From assembly GCA_947479755.1 (NCBI GenBank), contig CANKAM010000002.1, positions 1-64,000 on the forward strand: a DNA stretch of 64,000 bases, given 5' to 3'. The notes under the pieces were generated by a model that was not told where the DNA came from, did no database searches, and was given only the letters and a program-made list of their open reading frames with translations. The position numbers and the translations under genes were made by a program. The stretch is from Bacteroidota bacterium (lineage in GTDB: Bacteria > Bacteroidota > Bacteroidia > SXHM01). The stretch's first letter is position 1, and each line of letters opens with the position of its first letter. This document shows positions 3,549-23,495 of this stretch, one piece after another.

Positions 3549-3920
3549 TTAGGATTTTCTTTTTCTGATTTCTTCTTCTATTTCTTTGAGCTTGTCTAAG
3601 GGCAGGTTGCGGACGAGCTCGTTGAAGTTTACGGGTACTTGTGTTTTGATGAGGGTGGTGAGGGGATTGTGGTTATTATCACCGAGGGGTTGTGTGGGCT
3701 TGTAGTCGAAGAGGTCGTTGGGGGTGCAGTTGAAGATGATGCAGAGTTTTTCGATGTAGGCGAGGTTGATTTCTTTTACCTGATTGCTGATGAGTTGTGT
3801 GGCAGTGTTGTGGGTGAATCCGTGGCTGCGCAGGAAGGTTAAGGGACGGTCGATGTTTTTTAATGCGCAGAGGTGACCGATGTTGATGAAGAGGTTGGAG
3901 GTGTAGGAGCGGTTGGCCAT
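3549..3920 (-). CDS. Small XRE/Cro-C1-type HTH DNA-binding protein
   Basis: A 123-residue protein. Residues about 8-73 fit a Cro/C1-type five-helix HTH: recognition region F-T-H-N-T-A-T-Q-L-I (35-44), then N-L-A-Y-I-E-K-L-C (52-60) and the closing C-T-P-N-D-L-F typical of this family. The last 20 residues are charged (E-I-E-E-E-I-R-K-R-K) and probably helical. No catalytic or toxin domain is visible. The gene reads away from a 14-unit phased repeat array that starts 60 bp upstream of its ATG, so binding to the array and autoregulation are natural hypotheses (inference). Its plus strand is very G-rich (23 G against 6 C in 3841-3900), unlike neighbouring genes. Confidence 0.85.
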   Translation of the reverse strand: MANRSYTSNLFINIGHLCALKNIDRPLTFLRSHGFTHNTATQLISNQVKEINLAYIEKLCIIFNCTPNDLFDYKPTQPLGDNNHNPLTTLIKTQVPVNFNELVRNLPLDKLKEIEEEIRKRKS

Positions 3921-3980
3921 GTTTTGGAAGTTGGAGGCTATAAGTTAGAAGCCAGAGTTTGTGTTTGTTTTATTGTTGGT

Positions 3981-4263
3981 GTTAATTGCGGTGGGATTGA
4001 TATTAATTGTGAGGTTAAATAAATTAATAGTGAAGCTATTAGTATTAATTGTGTAATTTTTAATGTTAATTAATATTTATATACTATTAATTGCAACAAA
4101 TTTAGTATTAATTTCATGTATTTTAATATTAATTATGATATTATAATTGTTAATTGTATTAACAGTACTGTTAATATTTTATTTTATATTATTAATTGCG
4201 ATTATATAAATATTAATTGCGGTTGAAGAACTATTAATTGCGGAACTGTTTATGTTAATTGCG
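3981..4263. repeat. 14-unit direct-repeat array with exact 21-bp period
   Basis: A 10-bp motif, consensus RTTAATTGYG, starts at 3981, 4002, 4023, 4044, 4065, 4086, 4107, 4128, 4149, 4170, 4191, 4212, 4233 and 4254: fourteen starts, each exactly 21 bp apart. RTTAAT is present in all 14; the TTGCG part is intact in the outer units and eroded in units 5-10. The 11-bp spacers differ from one another, but 12 of the 13 bounded by units end in T. Only three out-of-phase TTAAT pentamers occur in the span. Twenty-one base pairs equal two turns of B-DNA, so all motifs lie on one face of the helix, as expected for cooperative protein binding. No coding frame runs through it. Confidence 0.9.
4157..4176. 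promoter_or_regulatory. 20-bp perfect palindrome inside the array
   Basis: TATTAACAGT followed by its exact reverse complement ACTGTTAATA, with no spacer. It overlaps the spacer of array unit 9 and the start of unit 10, the part of the array where the 3' half of the motif is most degenerate. It could be a dimer operator for the adjacent HTH protein; no binding evidence is available from sequence. Confidence 0.6.
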
Positions 4264-4301
4264 AGGGTTGAAATTGGGGGTTTTGTGTGTGGAATTGGAG
4301 A

Positions 4302-4775: not shown

Positions 4776-7700
4776 ATGAGTTGTTTCTACCCGCGTGAGT
4801 TTTTAATTTCTTCTTCATTTCTTTTTAAAAAAATACTGCCTTTGAGCGCAGTATTTTCTTTATTGGTTACGTTTAGTGTATTGCTTACACCTGTGGCTAC
4901 TGTGGCTCAGGTGATGGTTCCTTTTGCTCCACGCACAGTTCCTTCGCATTACAAAATCAGGGGCGATTTTGCCATGTTAGGGAATACAAACCTGACGTTA
5001 GTGACTTACGCTGACAACGGTGGTAACGGAAGTCCGATGGAATATGTGGATGTGGATGCAAATGACAGTACATTTAACTCATCTTCGTCAACGCTTGTTT
5101 TTTCAGGAGAAAACAGTTCTGTTCCTGCCTGTTCTGATATTCTTTTTGCGGGATTGTATTGGACCGGCAGAACCGATGATGATGCTACCAGTCCGATTAC
5201 TTTTAATGTTACAAGAAGCATACCTACAGGAACTGCTCCTGTAAATCAAAATTACAATGTGGTACATAATAATACCATTACAAATACTAACTATATATTA
5301 ACAGTATCAAGAGGAGGAAGTGCAGGTAATTACCATACAATATTTACGTTTACCGGCAATGGAAATACCTATGTATTCAATTTAACAAATAATGCCGGTG
5401 TAAGCCGCCTTACTCTTTCGGTGAACGGGGGCGGAGCTGTAAATATTCCTGTAACCTATGTGGTGGCGGGAAATGTGGGCACAGCTACTCTTACCACTCC
5501 CTATGTAATAGTTGATGGTACGCTCAATATTACTATTAACCAGCTTGTGAGAGATTCGCGTCTTGACCGAACAACTACTCAAACTCAGGCAGCGGCCATT
5601 GCAAGAGTCAATGTATCGGGAACTGCACCAACGTATTCGAATTATACCAAGACCTTTGATAAACGCAAGGTAAAAATTAAAGGTCCGTTAGCTACAAACT
5701 ATACGGAGGTTACGGCAGCAGCAAGTGATATTTTTTATCCAACTGTTGCAAATACTATAGCAGCGGGGTATGGTATGTATTCTGCTTTTAAAGATATTAC
5801 TTCTTATGTGCAAACAAATGGTATAGGGTCTTATACTGTAGCAGACGTTGCTTTGGTTGAAGGAAGCGGAGGTTTATTTGGATTTTATGGTGGTTGGGGT
5901 ATGGTGGTAGTTTATGAGAACTACCTTATGGACTGGAGAGATATCACGGTTTTTGACGGACATAACTATGTTCCCTCGGGCACGGGAACTTTTGATGTGC
6001 CTGTATCCGGTTTTCAAACTACGCCTACCGGGGCTGTAAATTTAAGGGTGGGTGTTATGGCCGGAGAGGGTGACGTTGGGGTTACCGGTGATTATTTTCA
6101 AATACGTAATGCAGCAAATAGTGCATGGGTGTCATTAAGCCACACAGGAAATACTACTACCAACTATTTTAATTCTTCTATTGCTACGGGTGGTAATGCT
6201 CGTAATCCAAACCTGTTGAATAATACAGGTCTGGACATCAGTTCTTTTACTGTACCGAATGTGGGAAATACAGTAATGACGAACAACCAGACATCTACTA
6301 CTTTCCGATGTGGCTCTACATCGGATACCTACTGTTTTTTCAATATTTGTATATCATCTGATTCATATGTGCCAGAGGTTGAGGGTTTGATTTCAGTAAC
6401 GAATGTGAACGGATCGCCACCAACGCCAGGGCCTTTGACTGTATCACCGGGTGATACGATTCAATATACGGTTGATGTAAGAAATATAGGAACCGAGGCT
6501 GTAGCAGCTCATACCATTACTATTCCTATTCCTTATGGCGCTACCTTTATACCGGGCAGCCTTTCAAGCAACATTACTTTTACTCCGCTTCCAACTCCTA
6601 ACAATCTTTATTTTGACCCGAATGCAGGTTCAACCGGGTCAATTATTTGGGATTTTGGAACATTACCTTTACCTGCAGACCCTCAAACACTGCTGGCTTC
6701 GCTAACTTTTTCGCTTCAGGTTAGTGACAATTGCTTATTGCTAAATGAAGCATCGTGTGCAGATGCTCTTGCTGCGGTTGGTTCATTAACAGGTACAGGA
6801 ACAATCACGGGATTTGGTATCTCTAATACGGGTCTTATCAGTGGTTATGAAACCAGCGGAGCTTGTCAGGGACAACCAATAACTGATCCTTTAATTGCTT
6901 CGATTGTAGTACCTCCGGGGTATATTTCGGCTAACTGTACTCCTCAGGAACTGGATGTGGATTTTAATTTCTGCAATGGATTGACTTCTATTCCTCTTGA
7001 CTCGGTAAATGCTTTTTTACCCATTGGTACAAGATTTTTTAATGAATTTCCGGTAACGAATTCATCAACTGAATATACTTCAACTTTCCCTGCTGTTGCA
7101 GGTTCAGTTGTTACTTATTATGCTGTTCCTTCTATCTTGGGGGGGACGTGTGCTATTCCAATTACCATTACTATTTGCAGCAACTCGATCTTTGCGAATG
7201 ATGACTTTTTAGGATCGTTTAATTGTGTTAGCGGGGGAACAAATGTTCTTAACGTTCTTAGTAATGACCAATTAGGGCCAAACCCGGCAACAACTTCGAA
7301 TGTAACCTTGAGTGTAGTAACTCCGGACCCGACAGGACATGTTACAATAAATTCAGACGGAAGTGTAGATATAGTAGCGGGTACACCCGGAGGAACCTAT
7401 ACAGTTACTTACCAGATATGTGAAAACAGTTTACCATCTAATTGCGATCAGGCAGTTTTAACTATTCAGGATAATGTTGCTCCAACAGCAGTATGTCAAA
7501 ACATTACTGTAGGGCTGAATGCAGGTGGTACAGTAACAATTACCGCAGGACAGGTTGACAATGGAAGTTCTGACGCATGCGGTATTGCTTCGATGTCGGT
7601 TTCGCCTTCTTCTTTTACCTGTGCAAACATTGGTGCGAACACGGTAACTTTAACTGTAACTGACCTGAGCGGAAATGTTTCGACCTGTACAGCAACTGTT

Positions 7701-10700
7701 ACGGTAGTTGATAACACCGCTCCTACAGCTGTGTGTCAAAACATTTCAGTAAACCTTAGTGCAGGAGGAACAGCAACAATAACAGCTGCGCAAATCAATA
7801 ATGGCAGTTCGGATAACTGTGGGATTGCTTCTATCTCAATTCTGCCATCTTCTTTTACATGTGCAAATGTGGGAGCTAATTCGGTAACATTAACTGTTAC
7901 GGATGTTAACGGAAATGTATCAACCTGTATAGCTACAGTTACAGTAAATGATGTTACACCGCCAACCGCGGTTTGCCAAAACATTTCGTTAAATCTAAAT
8001 GCTGTAGGAACTGTAACAATAATTGCCTCACAAATTAATAACGGAAGTACAGATGTGTGCGGAATTGCTTCGTTAAGCATTTTTCCTACTTCGTTTAGCT
8101 GCGCAAATGTTGGAACTAACACCGTTACATTAACAGTTACTGATGTTAATGGCAATGTTTCGACCTGTACATCAACGGTAACTGTTGTTGATAATATAGC
8201 TCCGACAGCGGTATGTCAAAATGTAACGGTTCAATTGGGTGCCGGTGGTACGGCAAGTGTAACTGCTGCTCAGGTTAATAACGGCAGTTCGGATAATTGC
8301 GGTATTGCTTCGCTTTCGGTTTCTCCTTCTTCTTTTACCTGTGCTAATGTTGGCGCTAACACGGTTACCTTAACTGTTACTGATGTTAACGGTAATGTTT
8401 CGACTTGTACTGCTACGGTTACGGTGCAGGATAATATTGCGCCTACTGCGGTTTGCCAAAATATTACACTACAACTGAGTGCCGGTGGTGCTGCTTCTGT
8501 AACGGCTGCTCAGGTTAACAATGGAAGTTCGGATAATTGCGGGATTGCTTCGCTGGCGGTTTCGCCTTCTTCTTTTACCTGTGCTAACGTTGGGGCTAAC
8601 ACGGTTACCTTAACCGTTACAGATGTAAACGGAAGAGTTTCTACCTGTACTGCTACGGTTACGGTTCAGGATAATGTTGTTCCGGTAGCTGTTTGTCAAA
8701 ACATAACTGTTCAACTGAATGCTGGCGGAACTGCTTCTATTACAGCAGCACAAATCAATAACGGTAGTTCGGACGCCTGCGGTATTGCTTCGCTTTCTGT
8801 TTCACCTTCTTCTTTTACATGCGCTAATGTTGGCGCAAACACGGTTACCTTAACCGTTACAGATGTTAATGGGAACACATCAACGTGTACAGCAACTGTA
8901 ACTGTTCAGGATAATATTGTTCCGGTTGCAGTTTGTCAGAATATTACTGTACAGCTCAATTCATCGGGAACGGTTTCCATTACTGCAGCACAAATAAATA
9001 ATGGAAGTTCGGATGCCTGCGGAATTGCTTCACTTGCTGTTTCTCCTTCTTCTTTTACGTGTGCTAATGTGGGAGCTAATACTGTTACTTTAACTGTTAC
9101 AGATGCACACGGAAACATCTCTACCTGTAACGCAACTGTAACAGTTGTTGATGTAACACCACCAACAGCAATTTGTCAGAATATTTCTGTTAACTTATCT
9201 GCCGGAGGTACAGCCTCTATAACAGCTGCCCAGGTTAACAACGGAAGTTCAGATGCATGCGGAATTGCAACTATCTCTGTTTCTCCTTCTTCATTTACTT
9301 GTGCAAACGTTGGAGCTAATACTGTTACACTAACAGTAACGGATGTTAACGGAAACGTTTCTACTTGCACGGCAACAGTAACAGTTGTTGATATTACTCC
9401 TCCTACCGCTGTTTGCCAGAATATTACTGTAAACCTAAGTGCAGGTGGAACTGCAACAATAACAGCCGCCCAAATTAATAATGGAAGCTCAGATGCATGT
9501 GGTATTGCATCTATTTCTGTTTCTCCTTCTTCTTTTACCTGTGCTAATGTCGGAGCTAATACTGTTACGCTTACAGTTACGGACGTTAACGGAAATGTTT
9601 CTACCTGTACCGCTACTGTTACAGTCAGGGATGTAACTAATCCAATTGCTGTTTGTCAAAATATCAGTGTAAATCTTAGTGCCGGTGGAACTGCAACAAT
9701 AACTGCTGCCCAAATTAATAATGGAAGTTCTGATGCTTGTGGTATTGCTTCTCTTGCTGTTTCGCCTTCTTCATTTACCTGTGCTAATGTTGGTGCAAAT
9801 ACGGTTACACTTACAGTTACTGACGTTAATGGAAATATTTCTACCTGCACTGCAAGTGTTACTATTAATGATATTACTAATCCAACTGCTGTTTGTCAGA
9901 ATATTACTGTAAACCTAAGTGCCGGTGGAACTGCTAGCATAACAGCTGCGCAAGTAAATAATGGAAGTTCTGATGCATGTGGTATTGCTTCACTTGCTGT
10001 TTCTCCTTCTTCTTTTACCTGTGCTAATGTCGGAGCTAATACTGTAACGCTTACAGTGACTGATGTAAACGGAAATGTTTCAACTTGTACAGCAACGGTT
10101 ACTATTAACGATGTTACTCCTCCAACAGCTATTTGTCAGAATATTACTGTTAATCTTAACTCTTCAGGAAATGCTACTATAACGGCTGCACAAATTAACA
10201 ACGGAAGTTCAGATGCTTGCGGTATCGCTTCGCTTGCAGTTTCTCCCTCTTCATTTACCTGTGCAAATGTTGGAGCGAATACGGTTACTCTCACTGTAAC
10301 TGATATTCATGGAAATATATCTACTTGTACTGCAACAGCAACTGTTGTTGATCAGGTAGCGCCTACTGCGCTTTGCAGGAATGTTACTGTAGTATTAAAC
10401 GCTGCAGGTACTGCATCAATTTCAGCCTCTCAGGTAAATAACGGATCATCTGACAACTGCGGAATTGCTACTGTTACTGTTTCGCCTTCTGCATTTACAT
10501 GTGCAAATGTTGGGGCAAATAATGTTGTTCTTACTGTAACTGATATACACGGAAACGTCAGCACCTGTTCTGCAATTGTAACTGTTCAGGATAATACTGC
10601 ACCAGTTGCTGTTTGTCAGAATATTACTGTTGCGCTAAGTGCAATAGGAACAGTGTCAATTAGCGGAGCGCAGGTTAACAATGGTAGTACTGATGCATGC

Positions 10701-13700
10701 GGAATTGCTTCTCTTTCTGTTTCTCCTTCTACATTCACTTGTACTAATGTAGGAGCCAACACAGTAACATTAACTGTAACAGATGTTAACGGAAACTCAT
10801 CAACTTGTACCGCAACTGTAACTGTTACAGATAATATTGCTCCAACAGCAGTTTGTCAAAACATTACGGTGAATTTGAACTCAGCCGGAACAGTTTCTAT
10901 AACTGCTGCTCAGGTTGATAACGGAAGTGGTGATGTTTGCGGAACTGTAACATTAAGTGTTACTCCATCTACGTTTACCTGCGCTAATGTTGGTGCAAAT
11001 ACAGTTACTTTAACTGTTACTGATGCCAACGGAAATTCTTCAAGTTGTACGGCTACAGTAACAGTTGTTGATGTAACACCACCAACAGCAATTTGTCAGA
11101 ATATTTCTGTTAACTTATCTGCCGGAGGTACTGCCTCTATAACAGCTGCCCAAATAAATAACGGAAGTTCAGATGCCTGCGGAATTGCTTCGCTTTCGGT
11201 TTCTCCTTCTTCGTTTACCTGTGTCAATGTTGGAGCCAATACGGTTACGCTAACCGTTACAGATGTAAACGGAAATTCATCTACCTGTACTGCAACAGTA
11301 ACAGTTGTGGATAATATAGCTCCTACTGCAGTATGTCAGAATGTAACTATTCAGTTAAATGCGCTTGGAAATGCATCTGCTACAGCGGCTCAAGTCAATA
11401 ACGGAAGTTCGGATAATTGCGGAATAGCTTCACTTTCGGTTTCGCCAAGCAGTTTCACATGTGCAAACGTTGGTGCTAATACTGTTACACTAACAGTAAC
11501 GGATGTAAACGGAAATGTTTCTACCTGCACTGCCACTGTTACTGTTCAGGATAATATTGCACCTTCAGCAATTTGCAGGAATATAACTGTGCAGCTAAAC
11601 TCATCAGGAAACGCTTCTATAACTGCAGCACAAGTTAACAATGGCAGTTCTGATAACTGTTCGATTGCTTCACTAACAGTTTCACCAAGTTCTTTTACCT
11701 GTGCTAATGTTGGAGCAAATACAGTTACACTTACTGTAACAGATATTCACGGAAACGTTTCTACCTGCACAGCAACAGTAACTGTTCAGGATAATGTTGC
11801 TCCAATTGCAATCTGTCAAAATATTACTGTTGCTCTTAATGCGGCAGGAACTGCATCTATTACTGCAGCACAAATTAATAACGGAAGTTCTGATGCATGC
11901 GGTATTGCTTCGCTTTCTGTTACACCTTCAACTTTTAACTGCTCAAATGTTGGTGCAAATACAGTTACATTAACTGTAACTGACGTAAATGGAAATTCTT
12001 CTACCTGCACAGCAACAGTTACAATACAGGATAATGTTGCTCCAATTGCAATCTGTCAAAATATTACTGTTGCTCTTAATGCGGCAGGAACTGTTACTAT
12101 TACAGGGGCCCAGGTAAATAACGGTTCTTCGGATGCCTGTGGAATTTCTTCTCTTTCTGTTACTCCTTCAACATTTACTTGTGCCAATGTTGGCCCTAAC
12201 TCGGTTACTTTAACTGTTACAGATGTAAACGGAAATTCATCAACCTGCACAGCGACTGTTACTATTCAGGATAATTTTACTCCAATTGCTGTTTGTCAAA
12301 ACATTGTTGTAAATCTGAGTTCTGCTGGAACAGTATCAATAACTGCTGCTCAAGTAAATAACGGCTCAACTGACAATTGTGCAATCGCATCAATGTCTGT
12401 TTCTCCTTCTTCTTTCACTTGTGCGAATATCGGAGCAAACACTGTTACACTTACAGTTACCGATGTAAGCGGAAATTCTTCAACCTGCACTGCAACTGTT
12501 ACTATTGTAGATATTACACCTCCAACTGCACTGTGTCAGAATATCACAGCTCAGTTAAATGCTGCAGGAAATGTGACAATTACTGCTGCACAAATAAATA
12601 ATGGAAGTTCAGATGCCTGCGGAATTGCTAGTATTTCTGTTTCACCTTCCTCATTCACCTGTGCCGGTGTCGGACCTAATCCTGTAACACTAACTGTTAC
12701 GGATGTGAACGGAAATATTTCTACCTGCTCTGCTACTGTTACTGTAGTAGATAACATTGCTCCGGTTGCAACTTGTCAGAACATTAGTATTGACCTTGAC
12801 GCAACAGGAAATATTTCAATCAATGCTACACAGGTTGATAACGGTTCTTCAGATGCGTGCGGAATTGCTTCAATTTCTGTTTCACCCAATTCATTTACCT
12901 GTGCTAATGTTGGACCCAATACCGTTACACTTACTGTTACTGACGAAAACGGAAATGTGTCTACCTGCACATCCACTGTAACTGTTGTAGATAATACTGA
13001 TCCGATTGCGGTTTGTCAGAACATTAGTATTAACCTTAATTCATCCGGAACCGCCTCTATCACAGCCGCGCAAATTAATAACGGTTCAAGTGATGCATGC
13101 GGAATTGCTTCAATAGCTGTTTCTCCATCTTCTTTCACTTGTGCTAATGTTGGTGTAAACAATGTAACATTAACAGTAACAGATGTGCATGGAAATTCAT
13201 CAACCTGCAGTGCTACTGTAACAGTAGCAGATGTTACTCCTCCAACTGCAGTTTGTCAGAATATTACAGTTCAGTTAAACTCATCAGGAAATGCATCCAT
13301 CACAGCAGCACAAATTAATAACGGAAGTTCGGATGCATGCGGAATTGCTTCAATAGCTGTTTCACCAAGTTCTTTTACCTGTGCTAATGTTGGAGCAAAT
13401 ACAGTTACACTTACTGTAACAGATATTCACGGAAACGTTTCTACCTGCACAGCAACAGTAACTGTTCAGGATAATGTTGCTCCAGTAGCAAACTGTCAGA
13501 ATATTACTGTGAACTTAAGTTCTGCAGGGACAGCTTCCATTACTGCTGCCCAAATAAATAACAACAGCACTGATGCTTGCGGAATTTTTTCACTCGCTGT
13601 TTCACCAAGTTCATTTACATGTGCGAATATTGGAGCAAACACAGTAACACTTACTGTTACTGATGTGAATGGAAATGTTTCAACATGCACCGCCACCGTT

Positions 13701-16700
13701 ACAATAGTTGATAATACAAATCCTGTTGCTGTTTGTCAGAATATCACCGTGAATTTAAGTTCTGCAGGAAGTACAACTATCACTGCATCACAAATCAATA
13801 ATGGAAGTTCTGATGCTTGCGGCATAGCTTCCATGACAGTTACTCCATCTTCATTCACTTGCGCAAATGTGGGAGCTAATTCAGTAACACTGACTGTAAC
13901 GGACAATAACGGAAATTCTACTTCATGTAATGCAATAGTAACAGTAGTTGATATTACTGCACCTATTGCAATTTGTCAGAATGTTACTGTTCAGTTAGAT
14001 GCAGGAGGAAATGCTTCGGTAACAGCCGCTCAGGTTAACAACGGAAGTTCGGATGCCTGTGGAATTGCTTCGCTTTCGGTTTCACCTTCTTCTTTTACTT
14101 GCGCCAACGTTGGAGCTAATACAGTTACATTAACTGTTACGGATGTAAATGGAAATTCTTCAACTTGTACCGCAACAGTTACTGTTCAGGATAATGTTGA
14201 CCCAGTAGCTATTTGCCAAAACATAACTGTTGCTCTGGATGCAAACGGAGATGTTGTAGTTACTGCGGCACAGATAAATAATGGCTCAACTGATAATTGC
14301 GGAATTGCGTCAATCACTCTTGATGGAGCTCAATCACAACTTGCTTTTGATTGCTCAAATGTTGGGGCTAATACGGTTACACTTACGGTTACTGATGTGA
14401 ACGGTAATTCTTCAACCTGCACTGCTACAGTTTCGGTTGAAGATAATATTGCTCCGAATGCAATTTGCCAGAATATTACTGCACAATTGGATGCAAACGG
14501 AGATGTAATCGTAACCGCTGTGCAAATCAACAACGGCTCAAACGACAACTGCGGTATTGCTTCAATCACACTTGACGGAAATCAATCACAACTTGCTTTT
14601 GATTGCTCAAATGTTGGTGCAAATACTGTAACGCTTACCGTAACTGATGTAAATGGAAATACATCAACCTGTCTTGCAACTATTACAGTTGTTGATAATG
14701 TTGATCCGATTGCCATTTGCCAAAATATAACAGCACAGCTTGATGCAAATGGTCAATTACTAATCAGCGCTGCACAGATAAATAATGGTTCAAATGACAA
14801 TTGCGGAATTGCTTCAATCACACTTGACGGGAATCAATCACAACTTGCTTTTGATTGTTCTGATGTTGGTGTAAATACTGTAACGCTTACAATAACTGAT
14901 GTAAACGGAAATTCTTCTTCATGCACTGCAACTGTTACTGTTCAGGATAATGTAGATCCTACTGCAATTTGTCAGAGTATTACTGTTCAATTAGACCAAG
15001 CTGGAAATGCTGTTGTAACTGCTGCACAGATAAACAATGGCTCAAGTGATAATTGCGGAATTGCTTCCATCGCTATTAACGGACAAACGCAAATTACTTT
15101 TAACTGCTTAAATGTTGGTACAAATACGGTTACATTAACCGTAACTGATGTTAACGGGAATATTTCAACTTGTTCTGCAACTGTTACAGTTCTTGACAAT
15201 GCAAGCACACCTCCAACTGCAATCTGCCAAAATATAACTGTTCAGCTTGATGCAAGCGGAAATGCATCTATCCTTGCTTCCGATGTTGATAACGGATCAT
15301 TTGACAATTGCGGAATTGCTTCTATGTCAGTTTCTCCAAACACTTTCAACTGCACAAATGTTGGAGCAAATACGGTTACATTATCAGTGACAGACTTGAA
15401 TGGAAACGTTGCAACCTGTTCAGCAATAGTTACTGTTGAAGATACTATTGCTCCTATGGCAATTTGTCAGAATCTAACTGTACAGTTAGATGCAACCGGA
15501 AATCTGGTTGTAACAGCTGCACAAATTAATAACGGATCAAATGATGCCTGCGGAATTGCGACAGTAACTATTAATGGTCAGTCACAACTTTCTTACAACT
15601 GTGGAAATGTTGGAGCTAATACTGTAACACTTACTGTTACCGATGTGAATGGAAATATTTCTACTTGCTCTGCAACAATAACTGTTCAGGATAATGTTGC
15701 TCCGAATGCGATCTGCCAAAACATCACTGCACAATTGGATGCAAACGGAAACATAATTGTAAGTGCAGCACAAATCAACAACGGTTCAAACGACAACTGC
15801 GGAATAGCCTCAATAACTATTAACGGTCAGTCACAACTTTCTTACAACTGCGGAAATGTTGGTGTGAATAATGTAACGCTAACAGTTACTGATGTAAACG
15901 GTAACGTTTCAACTTGCACTGCCACAATTACTGTAGTTGATAATATCAATCCTACTGCAATTTGTCAGAACATTACTGCACAACTTAATTCAAGCGGACA
16001 AATTGTTGTAACAGCTGCGCAAATAAATAACGGCTCATCTGATAATTGCGGAATTGCTTCTATAGCAATAAACGGTCAATCACAACTTACATACAACTGT
16101 GCAAATGTTGGAGCAAACATTGTTACATTAACTGTTACAGATGTAAATGGAAATGTTTCTTCATGCACTGCCACAATTACTGTCGTTGATAATATTAACC
16201 CAACTTCAATTTGTCAGAACATTACCATTGCATTAGATGCTAATGGTAATGCAGTTGTAACTGCTGCACAAATTGACAATGGCTCTAATGACAACTGTGG
16301 AATTGCTTCTATAGCAATCTCCGGGCAGTCACAACTTTCATTTAATTGTTTAAATGTCGGAGCGAATACAGTTACACTTACTGTAACTGATATAAATGGA
16401 AATGTATCAAGTTGTATCGCAACAATTACTGTAGTTGATAATGCAGGAACACCTCCGACTGCGATTTGCCAAAACATCACCGTTCAGTTAGATGCAACAG
16501 GAAATGCTTCTATTACAGCAAACCAGATAAATAACGGTTCTTTTGATAATTGCGGTGTCGCATCATTATCAGTTTCTCCAAATACATTTGATTGCGGTGA
16601 TATTGGCCTAAATACCGTAACATTAACTGTAACTGACCTTAACGGAAATTCATCTCAGTGTACAGCAACAGTAACTATTGAAGACAATGTTGCTCCGGTT

Positions 16701-19700
16701 GCTAACTGTCAGAACATCACTGTTCAGTTAGACGCCACCGGTAACGCAACTATTGCCCCAGGTGATGTGGATAACGGAAGTTCTGATGCCTGCGGTATTG
16801 CAAGCATTACAGTTTCTCCAAATACATTTACGTGTGCCAATGTTGGTGCAAACACAGTAACATTAACTGTTACCGATGTAAACGGAAACATCACAACTTG
16901 CACAGCAACAGCAACTGTTGAAGACAACGTTGCTCCGATTGCAAACTGTCAGAACATCACTGTTCAACTAGACGCTTCAGGAAATGCAATATTGACTGCT
17001 GCACAGATCAACAACAACTCAACTGACAACTGCGGAATTGCTTCAATAAATGTTTCAACTACTTCGTTCACTTGTTCAAACATAGGAGCTAATAATGTAA
17101 CACTTACAGTAACTGATGTGAACGGGAATTCAGCTTCATGTTCAGCTACCGTTACTATTCAGGATCATGTTGCTCCGATTGCTCTTTGTCAGAATATCAC
17201 AGTTCAACTTAACGCTGCGGGTATTGCTTCTATCACAGCAGCACAAATTAACAATGGTTCTTCAGATGCATGCGGAATTGCTTCGCTTTCAGTTTCTCCT
17301 TCATCATTCACGTGTTCAAATGTTGGAACCAACACTGTTACTTTAACTGTAACCGATAATCATGGAAATATTTCTACCTGCACAGCAATCGTTACTGTTC
17401 AGGATAACACGGATCCAATTGCTATTTGTCAGAACATAACTGTAAACTTAGATGCAAATGGAAATGCTGTTATCACTGCTGCTCAGGTAAACAACAATTC
17501 TTCTGATGCATGCGGAATTGCTTCAATGACAGTTTCGCCTTCAACATTTGATTGCTCTAACATCGGTGCAAATACTGTTACCTTAACTGTTACTGACAAC
17601 AACGGAAATGCATCTTCTTGCACAGCTACCGTAACAATTGAAGATAACACAAATCCGACTGTAATCTGTCAGAACATCACTGTTCAGCTGGATGCAAACG
17701 GAAACGTTGTGATTGTTGCTACTGATATTGACAACGGCTCAAGCGACAACTGCTCAACTTCCGGTTCAGGATTAACATTCAGTGCAAGCCAAACTTCATT
17801 TGATTGCTCTAACATTGGTGCAAACACAATCACCTTAACTGTTACCGATGCTTATGGAAATTCATCATCATGCGATGCAACGGTAACTGTTGTTGATACT
17901 GTTAATCCTATTGCAATCTGTCAGAACATAACTGTTCAATTAGATGCAAGTGGCAACGCTACCATTCTTGCAATTGATATTGATGGAGGTTCAACAGATA
18001 ATTGCTCTGACATCAACACCGGATTAACTTTCAGTGCAAGCCAAACTGCATTTGATTGCACAGATGAAGGCGCGAATACAGTAATACTAACTGTTACCGA
18101 TGCCTACGGAAATGTTTCTACCTGCACTGCGATTGTAACCATTGAAAACAATGTTGCTCCTGCTGCTGTTTGTCAGGATATCACGGTTCAGTTAGATGCA
18201 ACAGGAAATGTAATCATCACTGCTGCACAGGTTGATGGCGGAACAAATGCTGCCTGCGGAATTGCTTCACTTACCGTTTCGCCTTCTTCATTTGATTGTT
18301 CAGATGTTGGAGCAAATACAGTAACACTGACTGCAACCGACAACTCAGGAAATGTATCAACTTGCACAGCTGTTGTAACTGTTCAGGATACTATTAATCC
18401 AACTATCGTTTGTCAGAATATTACCGTTGCATTGGATGCTAATGGAAATGTAGTAATCACAGGTGTTGATTTGGATAATGGCACAACCGACAACTGCTCT
18501 ACTTCAGGTTCAGGATTAACTTACACTGCAAGTCAAACCAACTTTGATTGCAGCAACATTGGTGCAAATACAATAACATTAACTGTAACGGATGCCAACG
18601 GAAATTCATCTTCTTGCGATGCGATTGTAACGGTTACGGATACTGTAAATCCAACTGTAATCTGTCAGAGCATCACCGTTCAGTTAGATGCAAATGGAAA
18701 CGCTGTTATAACTGCGGTGCAGGTTGACAACGGTTCATTTGATAACTGCTCAACTCCTAACAACGGCTTAACTTATAGCATTAGCAACACTGATTTCGAT
18801 TGCTCAAACGTTGGCGCTAACACTGTTACTTTAACTGTAACAGATGCATTCGGAAATTCTTCTTCTTGCACAGCTACAGTTACAATTACAGATGATATTG
18901 ATCCGATTGCAATCTGTCAGGACATCACCGTTCAGTTGGATGCAAACGGACAAGTAACAATCAATACTTCACAGGTAAATAATGGTTCTTCTGACAACTG
19001 CGGAATTGCCACAATGACTGTTAATCCTTCATCATTTACTTGTGCAGGTATCGGAACAAATCCTGTAACATTGACTGTAACTGATGTTAATGGAAATGTT
19101 TCAACCTGCATATCAACTGTAACAGTGCAGGATAATGTTGATCCAATTGCAATCTGCCGCGATATTACAATTGACTTAGATGGCACAGGAAATATCTCAA
19201 TCGTTCCTTCACAGGTTGATAATGGTTCAGGTGATGCCTGCGGAATTGCTTCAATGACAGTTTCACCAAACACATTTGATTGCTTAAATGTTGGAGCAAA
19301 TACTGTGACACTTGTTATTACCGACCTTAACGGAAATGTGGACAGTTGCACTTCAGTTGTAACCGTTGTAGATGCAACTGCACCGAATGCAATCTGTCAT
19401 AACATCACAGTTGCTCTTGACTCAAATGGTGTTATTTCAATCACCGCTGCACAAATTGACAACGGCTCAACTGATGCATGCGGAATTGATACAATGACTG
19501 TTTCTACTTCTTCATTCGATTGTTCTAATATCGGTGAAAATTTGATAACACTTACCGTTACGGACGTGAACGGAAATTCAGACAACTGTTTCTCTACAGT
19601 AACTGTGGTTGATAACATTGCACCTGAATTCACCTTGTGTCCTGCTGACATTGTAATTCAGCCCGATAGCTCAAACTGCAATCCGTTTGCTACATGGAAT

Positions 19701-22700
19701 ACACCAATTGCTACTGACAATTGTGCAGTTACATCATTGACAAGCAACTTCCAGTCAGGAAACAATTTTCCTGTAGGAGTTACAACGGTTATTTTCACCG
19801 CAATTGATGCTTCCGGAAATACAACAACGTGTACGTTCACTGTAACGGTTCTTGCAAATCCTCTGTTAGCAACAGCAGTTGCTGATACAGTAAACTGCGG
19901 TTTCAATATTGCTTGTCCGGGCGGAACTAACGGAACTGCAACCGTATTACCTGCGGGAGGTTGTATGCCTTACAGCTACTTATGGAACAACGGACAAACA
20001 TCACAAACTGCTACAGGACTTTCTGCAACAACTTATTCAGTAACAGTTACTGATGGACTCGGAAATACTGCAACAACTTCTGTTACTTTAACAGAACCTT
20101 CACCACTGGTGATTGATAGCTTAACAAGTCCTGTAAACGCTGGCGGATGGAATATCAATTGTGCAAATACCAACAACGGTATCATCACAATTAATGTGTT
20201 AGGTGGTGCTGATTGTGCTCCTTACAGCTACTCATGGACCGGACCAAATGGTTATACTTCAACTGATGAAGACCTGAATATAGTTTATGCAGGAACATAC
20301 TATGTAACCATAACGGATATAAACAACTGTTCAATTACTGACAGCATTACCCTAACCGAACCGGAATTACTTGTAATAGACCTTATTGACCAGCAAGATG
20401 TAAGCTGCAATGGATTGGCAGATGGTTTTGCAACTGTTCTTGCAGGAGGCGGTGCTGGCGGATATCAATACTTATGGAGTAATGGCAAAACCTCAGCATC
20501 AGCTGATAGTTTAGATGCAGGTATTTATTTTGTAAGCGTTACGGATAACAACGGTTGTATTGCTAATACAAACGTTGTTATTGGCGAACCGACTCTGTTA
20601 ATTGCCGCTGCTACCATTACCTCAGATTATAACGGACAAGATGTTACATGTGCCGGAGCAAATGATGGAAGTGCGCAGGTATTGGCAAATGGAGGAACTC
20701 CCGGCTACACCTATTTGTGGACGAACGGCTCAACGGATTATTTTGCTAACGACTTAACTGCCGGAACTTATTTTGTAACGGTAACAGATACCAATGGGTG
20801 TGATACAACTGTTTCGGTAACATTAGTTGATCCTCCCGTACTTTCTGCTGGTGTTGTTTCTGTTACAAATGTTACCTGCAACAGTGCAGCAGATGGAAGT
20901 GCTACGGTACAGGCTTCCGGTGGAACTCCCGGCTACTTCTACTACTGGTCAAATACCCAGACCGGTGCAACTGCAACAGGTCTTGCAGCAGGAACTCATA
21001 ACGTTACAGTTTCAGACACTAACGGCTGTAACATCGTTCTTACCATTACTATAACCGAACCGGATGTTTTAAATCCTGTTTTACTTGATATACTTGATGT
21101 TACCTGCAATGGCGGAAGTAACGGTGCCGGTTTCATTAATGTAACAGGTGGTACTGAGCCTTACACGTATCTGTGGTCAAATGGTGCTACTACAGAAGAC
21201 TTGAATGGAGTAGGTGCAGGTGATTACACTGTTCAGATAACGGATGCAAATGGTTGCGACACTTCATTTACGTTGGTTATTTCACAACCAACCCCAATGG
21301 TTGCCTTCATCGAAAATCAGGTGAATGTTTACTGCGCAGGCAACAACACAGGTGAAGCCTCTGTAAATATTTCAGGGGGTGTTCCGGGCTATACTTACCT
21401 CTGGGATAATGGACAAACAACGCAAACTGTTGCAGATCTTTCTGCCGGACCGCACTCTATTACTATCCGTGATGCCAACAACTGTATCACCATTGTAAAC
21501 TTTGTAATCACGGAGAGTATTGTTCTCTCAGCCGGTGATGTGGATGTAAATAATGTAACCTGCAATGGAGGTAACAATGGAAGCATCAGCTTTAACATGG
21601 AAGGTGGTTCTGCTCCTTATTCATACGTGTGGAGTAATGGACAAACAACTGTTCCGGCAATAAATCTGCAGGCAGGTGATCATTCGGTAACTATTACCGA
21701 CTCTGCCGGTTGTGTACTTCAGCTTTCGTTTACAGTAAGCCAGCCCGATGCACTTACTCTTAACATCATTAACATTGTTCAGCCGGTTTGCAGTGGCTCA
21801 TCTACAGGGCATGCTACCGTTCAGGTTACAGGCGGAACACCAAATTACCAGTATGCATGGGATAACGGACAAACCACTGCAACTGCAACCGGCTTTACTG
21901 CAGGTGTTCACACCGTAGTGGTAACCGATGCTAACGGATGTGTGGACAGCACCACTGTTACAATTACCGAACCTGCCAGTCTTTCAGTTTCTATCATCGG
22001 AAGTTCAAATCCAACATGTTTTGGTGGCGCAAACGGCACGGCTACAGCTCTTGTAGGTGGTGGAGTTGCTCCTTACGATTACAGCTGGTCGCCAAGCGGA
22101 GGAACCAACTCAACCGCAACAGGTCTTTCTGCAGGAACACACATTGTAATTGTTACCGATGCTAACGGATGCTCTGCTTCACAAACATATACACTTACAC
22201 AACCTGCTCAGGTAGTTGTTACTATTGACGGAGGCGGCAGCACCATCTGCGCAGGTGAAAGCGTTACTCTTACCGCATCCGCTACAGGCGGCACCGGAAG
22301 CTATAACTTCGCATGGAACAATGGATTAGGCAATGGCGCAACACATACTGTATCGCCAACGGTTACCACAACGTATGTGGTTATTGCCGCCAACGCGCAG
22401 GGTTGTTCAGCAACGGATAGTGTTACTGTATCCATCTATCCTTCGCCTGCAGCATCCTTTACTCCTTCAGGCAGTTCATCCTGCACCTTCCCGGTAACGG
22501 TTAATTTCACCAATACTTCCACCAACTCGGTTACCTATTATTGGGAATTCGGAAACGGGGATTCAGCTTTCACCACCAATGGTCAGGCTACCTATGACAC
22601 CATCGGAAGCTATACCGTAATGCTGATTGCAACTTCCACAAACGGTTGCACAGATACTGCCCTTTATGTTTACAATGTTTATCCTGCACCTACTGCATTG

Positions 22701-23495
22701 TTCTCGTTGAGCGGAAATTCAGGTTGCGCTCCTTACACAGTATCATTCACCAACAACTCAGTTGACGGTGTTACTTATTACTGGAGCTTTGGTGATGGTG
22801 ATACTTCAATGTTAAGCAACCCTTCACACACCTATGAAATTCCGGGAACATACAATGTAACATTGGTAGTAAGCGGTGGCGGCTTGTGTAACGATACGCT
22901 TCAATTACTCTCGGCTGTAACTGTGTTCCAGACACCTGTCGCAGATTTCACTTCTGACTACTTCAACATTACTGACCCTGACGGACAAATCCAGTTCACC
23001 AACCTTTCAACAGGCGCAACAAGTTATGATTGGGATTTCGGTGACGGAAATACTTCAACGCTTACAGACCCGATAAACAATTATCTTGAGAACGGTGAGT
23101 TTGATGTAACACTAATCGCTTACAGTGGTGCAGGATGTTCCGACACCATTATTCAAACAGTGGAAGTAGAACTCATGAAAGGATTGTATATGCCAAATGC
23201 AATGATTGCAGGTGGTGATGGCGACTTCGGTCTCTTCCTGCCAAAAGGTGCGGGCATAGCAACGTATCAGTGTATGGTATTTGACAAGTGGGGCAACCTG
23301 TTATGGCAATCAACTGAATTAGTTAACGGCCAACCTTCCGAAGGATGGGATGGCAGATACAACGGTGTTGTTGTTCCGCTAGGTGCTTACATCTGGAAAG
23401 CCGATGCAACCTTCTTGGACGGAACCACATGGGAAGGTATGGAATACGAAAACGACCGCTTCAGTAATACCGGAAACGTTACCGTTCTGGAATAA
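4776..23495 (+). CDS. Giant T9SS type B repeat adhesin (6239 residues)
   Basis: A signal peptide (residues 1 to about 44, ending T-V-A-Q) is followed by a unique region (45-530), a DUF11-like domain (about 530-660), a cadherin/Big-like domain (about 807-900), 50 Ig/HYR-like units of 80-86 residues with four conserved cysteines each (904-4950), a classical HYR domain (about 4950-5030), ten SprB repeats (5030-5810), an Ig-like domain, three PKD domains (5890-6133) and a gliding-motility-associated C-terminal domain (6133-6239), the type B sorting signal. The product is expected to be a very long surface fibre exported by the type IX system; SprB-family adhesins of gliding Bacteroidota are the nearest described analogues. 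The ligand is unknown. The frame is intact through 12 kb of repeats. Upstream, a near-consensus -7 box lies at 4631; a terminator follows at 23541. Confidence 0.96.
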   Translation: MSCFYPREFLISSSFLFKKILPLSAVFSLLVTFSVLLTPVATVAQVMVPFAPRTVPSHYKIRGDFAMLGNTNLTLVTYADNGGNGSPMEYVDVDANDSTFNSSSSTLVFSGENSSVPACSDILFAGLYWTGRTDDDATSPITFNVTRSIPTGTAPVNQNYNVVHNNTITNTNYILTVSRGGSAGNYHTIFTFTGNGNTYVFNLTNNAGVSRLTLSVNGGGAVNIPVTYVVAGNVGTATLTTPYVIVDGTLNITINQLVRDSRLDRTTTQTQAAAIARVNVSGTAPTYSNYTKTFDKRKVKIKGPLATNYTEVTAAASDIFYPTVANTIAAGYGMYSAFKDITSYVQTNGIGSYTVADVALVEGSGGLFGFYGGWGMVVVYENYLMDWRDITVFDGHNYVPSGTGTFDVPVSGFQTTPTGAVNLRVGVMAGEGDVGVTGDYFQIRNAANSAWVSLSHTGNTTTNYFNSSIATGGNARNPNLLNNTGLDISSFTVPNVGNTVMTNNQTSTTFRCGSTSDTYCFFNICISSDSYVPEVEGLISVTNVNGSPPTPGPLTVSPGDTIQYTVDVRNIGTEAVAAHTITIPIPYGATFIPGSLSSNITFTPLPTPNNLYFDPNAGSTGSIIWDFGTLPLPADPQTLLASLTFSLQVSDNCLLLNEASCADALAAVGSLTGTGTITGFGISNTGLISGYETSGACQGQPITDPLIASIVVPPGYISANCTPQELDVDFNFCNGLTSIPLDSVNAFLPIGTRFFNEFPVTNSSTEYTSTFPAVAGSVVTYYAVPSILGGTCAIPITITICSNSIFANDDFLGSFNCVSGGTNVLNVLSNDQLGPNPATTSNVTLSVVTPDPTGHVTINSDGSVDIVAGTPGGTYTVTYQICENSLPSNCDQAVLTIQDNVAPTAVCQNITVGLNAGGTVTITAGQVDNGSSDACGIASMSVSPSSFTCANIGANTVTLTVTDLSGNVSTCTATVTVVDNTAPTAVCQNISVNLSAGGTATITAAQINNGSSDNCGIASISILPSSFTCANVGANSVTLTVTDVNGNVSTCIATVTVNDVTPPTAVCQNISLNLNAVGTVTIIASQINNGSTDVCGIASLSIFPTSFSCANVGTNTVTLTVTDVNGNVSTCTSTVTVVDNIAPTAVCQNVTVQLGAGGTASVTAAQVNNGSSDNCGIASLSVSPSSFTCANVGANTVTLTVTDVNGNVSTCTATVTVQDNIAPTAVCQNITLQLSAGGAASVTAAQVNNGSSDNCGIASLAVSPSSFTCANVGANTVTLTVTDVNGRVSTCTATVTVQDNVVPVAVCQNITVQLNAGGTASITAAQINNGSSDACGIASLSVSPSSFTCANVGANTVTLTVTDVNGNTSTCTATVTVQDNIVPVAVCQNITVQLNSSGTVSITAAQINNGSSDACGIASLAVSPSSFTCANVGANTVTLTVTDAHGNISTCNATVTVVDVTPPTAICQNISVNLSAGGTASITAAQVNNGSSDACGIATISVSPSSFTCANVGANTVTLTVTDVNGNVSTCTATVTVVDITPPTAVCQNITVNLSAGGTATITAAQINNGSSDACGIASISVSPSSFTCANVGANTVTLTVTDVNGNVSTCTATVTVRDVTNPIAVCQNISVNLSAGGTATITAAQINNGSSDACGIASLAVSPSSFTCANVGANTVTLTVTDVNGNISTCTASVTINDITNPTAVCQNITVNLSAGGTASITAAQVNNGSSDACGIASLAVSPSSFTCANVGANTVTLTVTDVNGNVSTCTATVTINDVTPPTAICQNITVNLNSSGNATITAAQINNGSSDACGIASLAVSPSSFTCANVGANTVTLTVTDIHGNISTCTATATVVDQVAPTALCRNVTVVLNAAGTASISASQVNNGSSDNCGIATVTVSPSAFTCANVGANNVVLTVTDIHGNVSTCSAIVTVQDNTAPVAVCQNITVALSAIGTVSISGAQVNNGSTDACGIASLSVSPSTFTCTNVGANTVTLTVTDVNGNSSTCTATVTVTDNIAPTAVCQNITVNLNSAGTVSITAAQVDNGSGDVCGTVTLSVTPSTFTCANVGANTVTLTVTDANGNSSSCTATVTVVDVTPPTAICQNISVNLSAGGTASITAAQINNGSSDACGIASLSVSPSSFTCVNVGANTVTLTVTDVNGNSSTCTATVTVVDNIAPTAVCQNVTIQLNALGNASATAAQVNNGSSDNCGIASLSVSPSSFTCANVGANTVTLTVTDVNGNVSTCTATVTVQDNIAPSAICRNITVQLNSSGNASITAAQVNNGSSDNCSIASLTVSPSSFTCANVGANTVTLTVTDIHGNVSTCTATVTVQDNVAPIAICQNITVALNAAGTASITAAQINNGSSDACGIASLSVTPSTFNCSNVGANTVTLTVTDVNGNSSTCTATVTIQDNVAPIAICQNITVALNAAGTVTITGAQVNNGSSDACGISSLSVTPSTFTCANVGPNSVTLTVTDVNGNSSTCTATVTIQDNFTPIAVCQNIVVNLSSAGTVSITAAQVNNGSTDNCAIASMSVSPSSFTCANIGANTVTLTVTDVSGNSSTCTATVTIVDITPPTALCQNITAQLNAAGNVTITAAQINNGSSDACGIASISVSPSSFTCAGVGPNPVTLTVTDVNGNISTCSATVTVVDNIAPVATCQNISIDLDATGNISINATQVDNGSSDACGIASISVSPNSFTCANVGPNTVTLTVTDENGNVSTCTSTVTVVDNTDPIAVCQNISINLNSSGTASITAAQINNGSSDACGIASIAVSPSSFTCANVGVNNVTLTVTDVHGNSSTCSATVTVADVTPPTAVCQNITVQLNSSGNASITAAQINNGSSDACGIASIAVSPSSFTCANVGANTVTLTVTDIHGNVSTCTATVTVQDNVAPVANCQNITVNLSSAGTASITAAQINNNSTDACGIFSLAVSPSSFTCANIGANTVTLTVTDVNGNVSTCTATVTIVDNTNPVAVCQNITVNLSSAGSTTITASQINNGSSDACGIASMTVTPSSFTCANVGANSVTLTVTDNNGNSTSCNAIVTVVDITAPIAICQNVTVQLDAGGNASVTAAQVNNGSSDACGIASLSVSPSSFTCANVGANTVTLTVTDVNGNSSTCTATVTVQDNVDPVAICQNITVALDANGDVVVTAAQINNGSTDNCGIASITLDGAQSQLAFDCSNVGANTVTLTVTDVNGNSSTCTATVSVEDNIAPNAICQNITAQLDANGDVIVTAVQINNGSNDNCGIASITLDGNQSQLAFDCSNVGANTVTLTVTDVNGNTSTCLATITVVDNVDPIAICQNITAQLDANGQLLISAAQINNGSNDNCGIASITLDGNQSQLAFDCSDVGVNTVTLTITDVNGNSSSCTATVTVQDNVDPTAICQSITVQLDQAGNAVVTAAQINNGSSDNCGIASIAINGQTQITFNCLNVGTNTVTLTVTDVNGNISTCSATVTVLDNASTPPTAICQNITVQLDASGNASILASDVDNGSFDNCGIASMSVSPNTFNCTNVGANTVTLSVTDLNGNVATCSAIVTVEDTIAPMAICQNLTVQLDATGNLVVTAAQINNGSNDACGIATVTINGQSQLSYNCGNVGANTVTLTVTDVNGNISTCSATITVQDNVAPNAICQNITAQLDANGNIIVSAAQINNGSNDNCGIASITINGQSQLSYNCGNVGVNNVTLTVTDVNGNVSTCTATITVVDNINPTAICQNITAQLNSSGQIVVTAAQINNGSSDNCGIASIAINGQSQLTYNCANVGANIVTLTVTDVNGNVSSCTATITVVDNINPTSICQNITIALDANGNAVVTAAQIDNGSNDNCGIASIAISGQSQLSFNCLNVGANTVTLTVTDINGNVSSCIATITVVDNAGTPPTAICQNITVQLDATGNASITANQINNGSFDNCGVASLSVSPNTFDCGDIGLNTVTLTVTDLNGNSSQCTATVTIEDNVAPVANCQNITVQLDATGNATIAPGDVDNGSSDACGIASITVSPNTFTCANVGANTVTLTVTDVNGNITTCTATATVEDNVAPIANCQNITVQLDASGNAILTAAQINNNSTDNCGIASINVSTTSFTCSNIGANNVTLTVTDVNGNSASCSATVTIQDHVAPIALCQNITVQLNAAGIASITAAQINNGSSDACGIASLSVSPSSFTCSNVGTNTVTLTVTDNHGNISTCTAIVTVQDNTDPIAICQNITVNLDANGNAVITAAQVNNNSSDACGIASMTVSPSTFDCSNIGANTVTLTVTDNNGNASSCTATVTIEDNTNPTVICQNITVQLDANGNVVIVATDIDNGSSDNCSTSGSGLTFSASQTSFDCSNIGANTITLTVTDAYGNSSSCDATVTVVDTVNPIAICQNITVQLDASGNATILAIDIDGGSTDNCSDINTGLTFSASQTAFDCTDEGANTVILTVTDAYGNVSTCTAIVTIENNVAPAAVCQDITVQLDATGNVIITAAQVDGGTNAACGIASLTVSPSSFDCSDVGANTVTLTATDNSGNVSTCTAVVTVQDTINPTIVCQNITVALDANGNVVITGVDLDNGTTDNCSTSGSGLTYTASQTNFDCSNIGANTITLTVTDANGNSSSCDAIVTVTDTVNPTVICQSITVQLDANGNAVITAVQVDNGSFDNCSTPNNGLTYSISNTDFDCSNVGANTVTLTVTDAFGNSSSCTATVTITDDIDPIAICQDITVQLDANGQVTINTSQVNNGSSDNCGIATMTVNPSSFTCAGIGTNPVTLTVTDVNGNVSTCISTVTVQDNVDPIAICRDITIDLDGTGNISIVPSQVDNGSGDACGIASMTVSPNTFDCLNVGANTVTLVITDLNGNVDSCTSVVTVVDATAPNAICHNITVALDSNGVISITAAQIDNGSTDACGIDTMTVSTSSFDCSNIGENLITLTVTDVNGNSDNCFSTVTVVDNIAPEFTLCPADIVIQPDSSNCNPFATWNTPIATDNCAVTSLTSNFQSGNNFPVGVTTVIFTAIDASGNTTTCTFTVTVLANPLLATAVADTVNCGFNIACPGGTNGTATVLPAGGCMPYSYLWNNGQTSQTATGLSATTYSVTVTDGLGNTATTSVTLTEPSPLVIDSLTSPVNAGGWNINCANTNNGIITINVLGGADCAPYSYSWTGPNGYTSTDEDLNIVYAGTYYVTITDINNCSITDSITLTEPELLVIDLIDQQDVSCNGLADGFATVLAGGGAGGYQYLWSNGKTSASADSLDAGIYFVSVTDNNGCIANTNVVIGEPTLLIAAATITSDYNGQDVTCAGANDGSAQVLANGGTPGYTYLWTNGSTDYFANDLTAGTYFVTVTDTNGCDTTVSVTLVDPPVLSAGVVSVTNVTCNSAADGSATVQASGGTPGYFYYWSNTQTGATATGLAAGTHNVTVSDTNGCNIVLTITITEPDVLNPVLLDILDVTCNGGSNGAGFINVTGGTEPYTYLWSNGATTEDLNGVGAGDYTVQITDANGCDTSFTLVISQPTPMVAFIENQVNVYCAGNNTGEASVNISGGVPGYTYLWDNGQTTQTVADLSAGPHSITIRDANNCITIVNFVITESIVLSAGDVDVNNVTCNGGNNGSISFNMEGGSAPYSYVWSNGQTTVPAINLQAGDHSVTITDSAGCVLQLSFTVSQPDALTLNIINIVQPVCSGSSTGHATVQVTGGTPNYQYAWDNGQTTATATGFTAGVHTVVVTDANGCVDSTTVTITEPASLSVSIIGSSNPTCFGGANGTATALVGGGVAPYDYSWSPSGGTNSTATGLSAGTHIVIVTDANGCSASQTYTLTQPAQVVVTIDGGGSTICAGESVTLTASATGGTGSYNFAWNNGLGNGATHTVSPTVTTTYVVIAANAQGCSATDSVTVSIYPSPAASFTPSGSSSCTFPVTVNFTNTSTNSVTYYWEFGNGDSAFTTNGQATYDTIGSYTVMLIATSTNGCTDTALYVYNVYPAPTALFSLSGNSGCAPYTVSFTNNSVDGVTYYWSFGDGDTSMLSNPSHTYEIPGTYNVTLVVSGGGLCNDTLQLLSAVTVFQTPVADFTSDYFNITDPDGQIQFTNLSTGATSYDWDFGDGNTSTLTDPINNYLENGEFDVTLIAYSGAGCSDTIIQTVEVELMKGLYMPNAMIAGGDGDFGLFLPKGAGIATYQCMVFDKWGNLLWQSTELVNGQPSEGWDGRYNGVVVPLGAYIWKADATFLDGTTWEGMEYENDRFSNTGNVTVLE
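7485..19625 (+). repeat. 50-unit intragenic repeat array, mostly 240 bp
   Basis: Each unit encodes A-x-C-Q-N-I-T-V, then a D-x-C-G-I-A block, F-T-C-A-N-V-G-A-N and S-T-C-T-A-T-V. From the cysteine codon at 7494 to that at 14214 every unit is exactly 240 bp (28 units with no indel). Later units are 83-86 residues because of small insertions before the third cysteine (D-G-N-Q-S-Q-L or S-G-S-G-L-T-F types), mixed with 80-residue ones. Some distant units share long identical DNA blocks. Confidence 0.95.

Follow-up and report, generated by a model that had tools for sequence, protein, structure and literature searches.

Arrays of sites at a 21-bp pitch before related and unrelated Bacteroidota genes point to an undescribed form of gene-control DNA

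Arrays of short sites repeated at a pitch of 21 bp stand before dozens of related and unrelated Bacteroidota genes, and they point to an undescribed and widely used kind of gene-control DNA. One such array lies in the window, that is, the whole stretch of 64,000 nucleotides analysed here (positions 1 to 64,000 of the forward strand of contig CANKAM010000002.1, assembly GCA_947479755.1, from a Bacteroidota bacterium), beside a gene for an HTH protein. This locus is read, with moderate confidence, as a self-contained cassette of regulator and operator array in which the HTH protein controls its own gene. More generally, the best reading of each array is that of a multi-site operator to which the adjacent regulator would bind.

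The array in the window and its neighbouring gene

The window array (3981..4274, plus strand) consists of 14 units of 21 bp, each an RTTAATTGYG motif with an 11-bp spacer, and was characterised by a unit table, shuffles, a Markov control, and comparison with homologous arrays. The unit table bears out the fourteen copies in exact 21-bp phase that the preliminary description had reported: units start at 3981, 4002, and so on to 4254, RTTAAT is present in 14/14, and the final motif and the final 21-bp unit end at 4263 and 4274, respectively. Unit positions 2-6 (T-T-A-A-T) are invariant in all 14 units and position 1 is A or G. T predominates at position 7 (12/14), G at positions 8 (10/14) and 10 (9/14), and C or T at position 9 (13/14). 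RTTAAT had also been called invariant and the spacers unrelated; the former holds for TTAAT with A or G before it, but beyond the motif T occupies position 21 in 13/14 units and A occupies position 19 in 11/14, so that the spacers share some sequence and are not wholly unrelated. RTTAAT occurs 15 times within 3931-4300, 14 of these in 21-bp phase. By comparison, the longest 21-bp run was 2 among 20,000 composition shuffles and 4 among 10,000 first-order Markov sequences in which any step from 10 to 40 bp was allowed. The phasing is thus far beyond chance, and the earlier suggestion of a cooperative binding array is likely right. Tandem Repeats Finder recovered only two short pieces of the array. 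Stops occur in all frames across it, in agreement with its description as non-coding DNA.

On one side, a 60-bp leader (3921..3980, minus strand) separates the array from the start codon of the HTH gene and presumably includes a ribosome-binding site and possibly a promoter, although no convincing Bacteroidota -7/-33 promoter was seen in it on inspection by eye. The distal array end is marked by a boundary block, TGGGGGTTTTGTGTGTGGAA (4275..4294, plus strand), which is common to the genus copies and to a gene-less array on contig C79.

The HTH gene (3549..3920, minus strand) is read away from the array and encodes a 123-aa protein that belongs to the Cro/C1-type family Pfam HTH_26 (E 2.7e-9, 37.6 bits against a cut-off of 22). 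In its AlphaFold model (mean pLDDT 86.7), two short strands flank the HTH core and the C-terminal part is helical, and the best Foldseek matches of this model are the XRE regulators SaPI2 Stl, VanUg, and CylR2. Among the weak matches is EspR, a nucleoid-associated XRE protein. PADLOC and NCBIfam gave no match for the protein, that is, no known defence family or NCBI-named family. The array's neighbours in the window include large adhesin-like ORFs. One of these, at 4776-23495, encodes a 6239-residue adhesin-like protein with about 28 tandem 240-bp repeats; it starts 500 bp past the array and could be a second target. Elsewhere in the window, at 46579-46930, lies a lysine/alanine/proline-rich repeat coding region with a resemblance to a histone-H1-like protein.

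Homologous loci and the history of their units

Searches with three-unit patterns identified a second array in the window genome, on contig C31, with 14 units and TTAAT intact in nearly all of them, upstream of an HTH gene 90% identical to that of the window. More distant paralogues on contigs C15 and C19 have 21-bp arrays with other motifs at the equivalent position. Across 60 related genomes, about 22 homologues show autocorrelation at 21, 42, and 63 bp upstream of the start codon, weakly in a few, and an array stands at the equivalent place in the majority of relatives in Bacteroidota and Acidobacteriota, even at identities as low as 25-40%. Carriers include Flavobacterium, Chryseobacterium, Epilithonimonas, Imperialibacter, and Pyrinomonadaceae (Acidobacteriota). 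The pitch is constant at 21 bp and the motif differs at almost every locus. As in an autoregulatory operator, the sites lie directly upstream of the regulator's own gene and are kept in relatives, and the proposed tie between array and adjacent HTH gene is thereby upheld.

A scan of 84,980 species yielded a wide family sample of 80 loci, namely 53 long members of the family and 27 short HTH_26 controls. The periodicity threshold, set from 22,008 background windows at their 99.9% level, was exceeded by 35 of the 53 long members versus 0 of the 27 short HTH_26 genes of Firmicutes (Fisher 1e-9). In a second, independent draw, which took 297 genomes from the phylum, periodicity was seen in 8/8 long members, of which four were below the 99.9% level and two came from the window genome, and in 0/2 short ones. 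A motif score placed 44 of 62 arrays above all 82 controls. Gaps between units in family arrays are always 21 or 42, and the median distance from array to start codon is 55 bp. The family is patchy, occurring in 6-8 of the 297 genomes (6 when the long form only is counted, window genome included), and one subclade has weak or absent arrays (L079, L080, L083, L085, L094, L096, L097, and L107). Searches of plasmids, phages, and IMG/VR did not find the family at the sensitivity used and returned short generic HTH matches only; the plasmid homologue search gave one 28% match and nothing more. A further, uncharacterised helical family, whose members start MxxxQENKLSMYL (L164, L166, L175, L177, and L081), is encoded divergently from an HTH_26 gene with the array between the two; its co-occurrence with the HTH family over the 60 relatives (Fisher 2e-7) is mostly genus-driven.

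Unit-by-unit comparison indicates how these arrays change. Between the window array and its G004:C115 counterpart, 14 units are colinear with no indel, and columns 2-6 differ at 1/70 positions versus 79/182 in columns 9-21 (Fisher p = 7e-13). An ungapped comparison of the C31 and G004:C115 arrays gives 3/70 core versus 69/182 spacer changes; these two probably represent one locus because both have a neighbouring transposase-like gene. Related loci thus keep the 21-bp phase, both by upstream autocorrelation and by ungapped 14-unit alignment. Neither outcome that the preliminary description had named as refuting, comparable runs in shuffled sequence or loss of phase at orthologous loci, was seen. 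A gap-length test on pairwise alignments was left out owing to aligner artefacts in distant pairs. At the window locus of genome G006, the adhesin has 93% DNA identity and the HTH gene 80%, and the array has another motif with no BLAST-detectable similarity to the window array, indicating that the cassette changes faster than its surroundings.

In the younger arrays (L098 and L113 in the HTH family, and that on contig C51), units are near-identical, spacers included. The preliminary description had taken mismatching spacers as an argument against tandem duplication, a view that these arrays do not support; on sequence comparison, the arrays likely arose by duplication of units followed by spacer decay, with selection keeping core and phase. 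Two further loci record other histories. At L046 4787-5038 (G000:C79), a gene-less array stands where genome G003 has an array and an HTH gene, the HTH gene being gone. At L045 4419-4838 (G000:C51:9418-9837), about 16 units like GCCTCTTGCAGCGGTGTTGCT are followed, with phase kept, by three GTTAATTGYR units of the window motif; no HTH gene lies nearby.

Arrays before other gene families

The same geometry is found before genes unrelated to the HTH proteins. Proteins of the uncharacterised FN family are about 240 aa long, and one end is a weak match to fibronectin-III. The window genome contains 10 matches to this family, whose copies (L187 to L216) lie on G000 contigs C103, C11, C4, C8, C57, and C29 and in relatives. 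Across relatives, 25 of the 30 FN copies tested are preceded by an array of 7-21 units, each with its own motif, that ends a median of 64 bp before the start codon. Upstream of the FN array there is usually a regulator gene with a Pfam LuxR-type GerE, AraC-type HTH_18, LytTR, or HTH_3 domain, and a few other regulator genes at FN arrays were assigned by eye only.

A 400-kb sample of other genome stretches, not selected for arrays, contained about ten further arrays, some of which adjoin LytTR, HTH_3, or CsoR-like regulators. In the non-coding DNA of this sample, 21 and 42 bp stand out above every other period in the range 14 to 42, where the remaining peaks are mostly harmonics of 7. Extrapolation from the sample and the window gives an estimate of tens, perhaps 90, arrays in the genome. 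No array was found in 100 kb of a genome of the same class that lacks the long HTH family. Some arrays, on contigs C51 and C79 and at L234 and L245, have no adjacent regulator. For the HTH family, the position of arrays relative to genes, their pitch, their conservation, and their association with the family are established by the comparisons above.

Some arrays have a period of 42 bp, in which two different sites alternate 21 bp apart (L227 237-723, L242 17616-18100, and L243 3165-3679). Palindromic sites in these include ATTCGCACATGTGCGAAT, and TGGCATATATGCCA with TGTTTTGTTTACAAAACA, and the alternating palindrome-like sites look like operator sites. At L237 8151-8648, next to a sigma-factor-like gene, 21-bp repeats lie in a coding region and specify seven-residue protein repeats. 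Candidates for further arrays at L091 near 5208 and L143 near 6300 were ruled out as simple short repeats.

Readings of the arrays and known systems

How a regulator and its array might work together can be outlined for the window locus. Each RTTAATTGYG site is inferred to be a binding site of the 123-aa XRE/HTH_26 protein. Exact two-turn spacing and a single orientation would align the bound molecules on one face of the DNA, where they would touch their neighbours, and such contacts would allow the array of about 300 bp to fill cooperatively. An array that stops 60 bp short of the start codon should exert switch-like control over the promoter of the cassette itself. Arrays of this kind would grow by tandem duplication of 21-bp units, with core and spacing kept by selection, spacers drifting, and protein and motif presumably diverging together between loci. 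Identical geometry beside LuxR, AraC, LytTR, HTH_3, and CsoR-like regulators counts in favour of the cassette. Counted against it are the arrays without an adjacent regulator, the subclade with weak or no arrays, and the form of the HTH_26 arrays, which are directional and non-palindromic, unlike typical XRE dimer operators; palindromic XRE operators were rejected as a class, as the palindromic signal was significant in 0 of 44 HTH_26 arrays. Motif similarity follows the recognition helix (partial Mantel 0.18) no more closely than it follows the rest of the protein (0.22), a comparison that does not separate cognate recognition from simple co-inheritance.

A different role would be that of a DNA-structuring or segregation platform, in which HTH protein and array form a centromere-type or nucleoid-organising complex and autoregulation is secondary. 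It may be compared with StbA on stbDRs and ParR on parC, and the weak match to nucleoid-associated EspR is in keeping with it, but it is unlikely given the chromosomal location, the absence of ParA or another motor beside the array, the tens of arrays per genome estimated from the sample with their differing motifs and regulator classes, and the patchy distribution in the phylum sample with none on plasmids or phages at the sensitivity used. StbA of plasmid R388 provides a close parallel: this single DNA-binding protein specifically binds functional direct repeats that are in helical phase and surround its own operon's promoter. The stbDR comprise two sets, each of five 9-bp repeats spaced 11 bp apart (one turn), with a role in plasmid stability and conjugation (PMC3098194). 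The window locus likewise has one DNA-binding protein and phased direct repeats upstream of its own gene; unlike stbDR, its array is chromosomal, has 14 units at two turns, is unrelated in sequence, and has many differing copies per genome.

Established classes of repeat were also considered. Partition loci (par/parS, parC, and stb) share phased repeats beside a DNA-binding gene, but the array is without a ParA, ParM, TubZ, or StbA-type protein. For replication iterons, a Rep gene is not among the neighbours, a plasmid match was limited to the single one at 28%, and arrays are many per genome. CRISPR and other repeat-spacer arrays have identical repeats, spacers of about 30 nt, and cas genes, whereas here spacers are 11 bp, the repeat is degenerate, and no cas-like neighbours were seen. 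The partition and iteron precedents offered in the preliminary description are not favoured, given the tens of arrays with differing motifs beside several regulator classes and several families of unknown genes.

The cassette reading must also be set against a process without binding function, in which the arrays are minisatellite by-products of duplication that favours 21 bp. The nearly identical units of L098, L113, and C51, some with a 42-bp higher order, and the coding 21-bp repeat at L237 8151-8648 would suit such a process. It is nevertheless improbable, since in old arrays core and phase persist with no indel despite a spacer divergence of about 40%, since arrays hold a fixed place at a median of 55-64 bp before the start codons of particular families, and since 21 and 42 bp outweigh the other periods from 14 to 42 in non-coding DNA. 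There is little likelihood, too, that the array is a docking site for another, trans-acting regulator with the HTH gene as one of its targets: FN and other unrelated genes with arrays of the same geometry, and the three window-motif copies on C51 away from any HTH gene, would be expected of such a factor, but a regulator gene of some class often adjoins the array, and motifs that differ per locus within one genome make a single common factor unlikely. Finally, a degenerate coding repeat or a transcribed RNA repeat (21 bp being 7 codons, with RTT-AAT-TGY read as I/V-N-C every seven residues in frame 1, and long spurious frames in several arrays) is very improbable in view of the stop codons that interrupt each reading frame across the array, the use of AAT and never the silent alternative AAC in 14 units, the lack of an Rfam match to the array, and RNA folding with only a weak advantage over shuffled sequence (z = -1.9).

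For the arrays as operators, several known systems offer partial likenesses. SaPI2 Stl and CylR2 share the HTH fold of the window protein by Foldseek and Pfam; they are known to act at one or a few operators and are not known to use phased arrays this long. LytTR systems such as HdrR/HdrM use two 9-bp direct repeats with a 12-bp spacer, which amounts to 21 bp, for direct autoregulation upstream of their own promoter (PMC6193735). They share the pitch and differ in having only two repeats, a beta-rich LytTR domain, and a membrane partner (PMC6193735); the regulator in the window has an XRE-type HTH in place of a LytTR domain, and some other arrays of the genome adjoin LytTR genes. BldC of Streptomyces binds a variable number of AT-rich direct repeats in an asymmetric, head-to-tail, and cooperative fashion, but has a MerR-like fold and 9-bp repeats and, as a global regulator, scattered targets in place of a single array at its own gene (PMC5859096). 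TAACTGA heptamer repeats, which are intergenic in Beggiatoaceae, Cyanobacteria, and some Bacteroidetes and are proposed to act on RNA (PMC4679880), resemble the 21-bp arrays in that they form numerous direct-repeat arrays between genes, a short way ahead of start codons; they differ in being one fixed heptamer, with no locus-specific motif, no 21-bp phase with spacers, and no adjacent regulator. Two-turn arrays of this length, or their abundance across a genome, were not found described in a literature search that covered a minority of subscription papers and preprints.

It is possible, at somewhat less than an even chance, that Bacteroidota and some Acidobacteriota have a general, undescribed architecture of long, locus-specific operator arrays at a strict two-turn pitch of 21 bp. 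Duplication of units would have built and diversified these arrays, each would be paired with a regulator of its own, whatever the fold (XRE, LuxR, AraC, LytTR, or CsoR-like), and many would also adjoin an uncharacterised gene that diversifies fast, such that some genomes hold tens of private switches. If this is true, one DNA geometry would have been adopted by unrelated regulator folds, implying that helical pitch itself is selected, and the many spurious ORFs with seven-residue repeats in the arrays would be accounted for. The arrays would then form a natural set for examining how cooperativity scales with site number and phase, and would provide a handle on several multi-copy unknown gene families.
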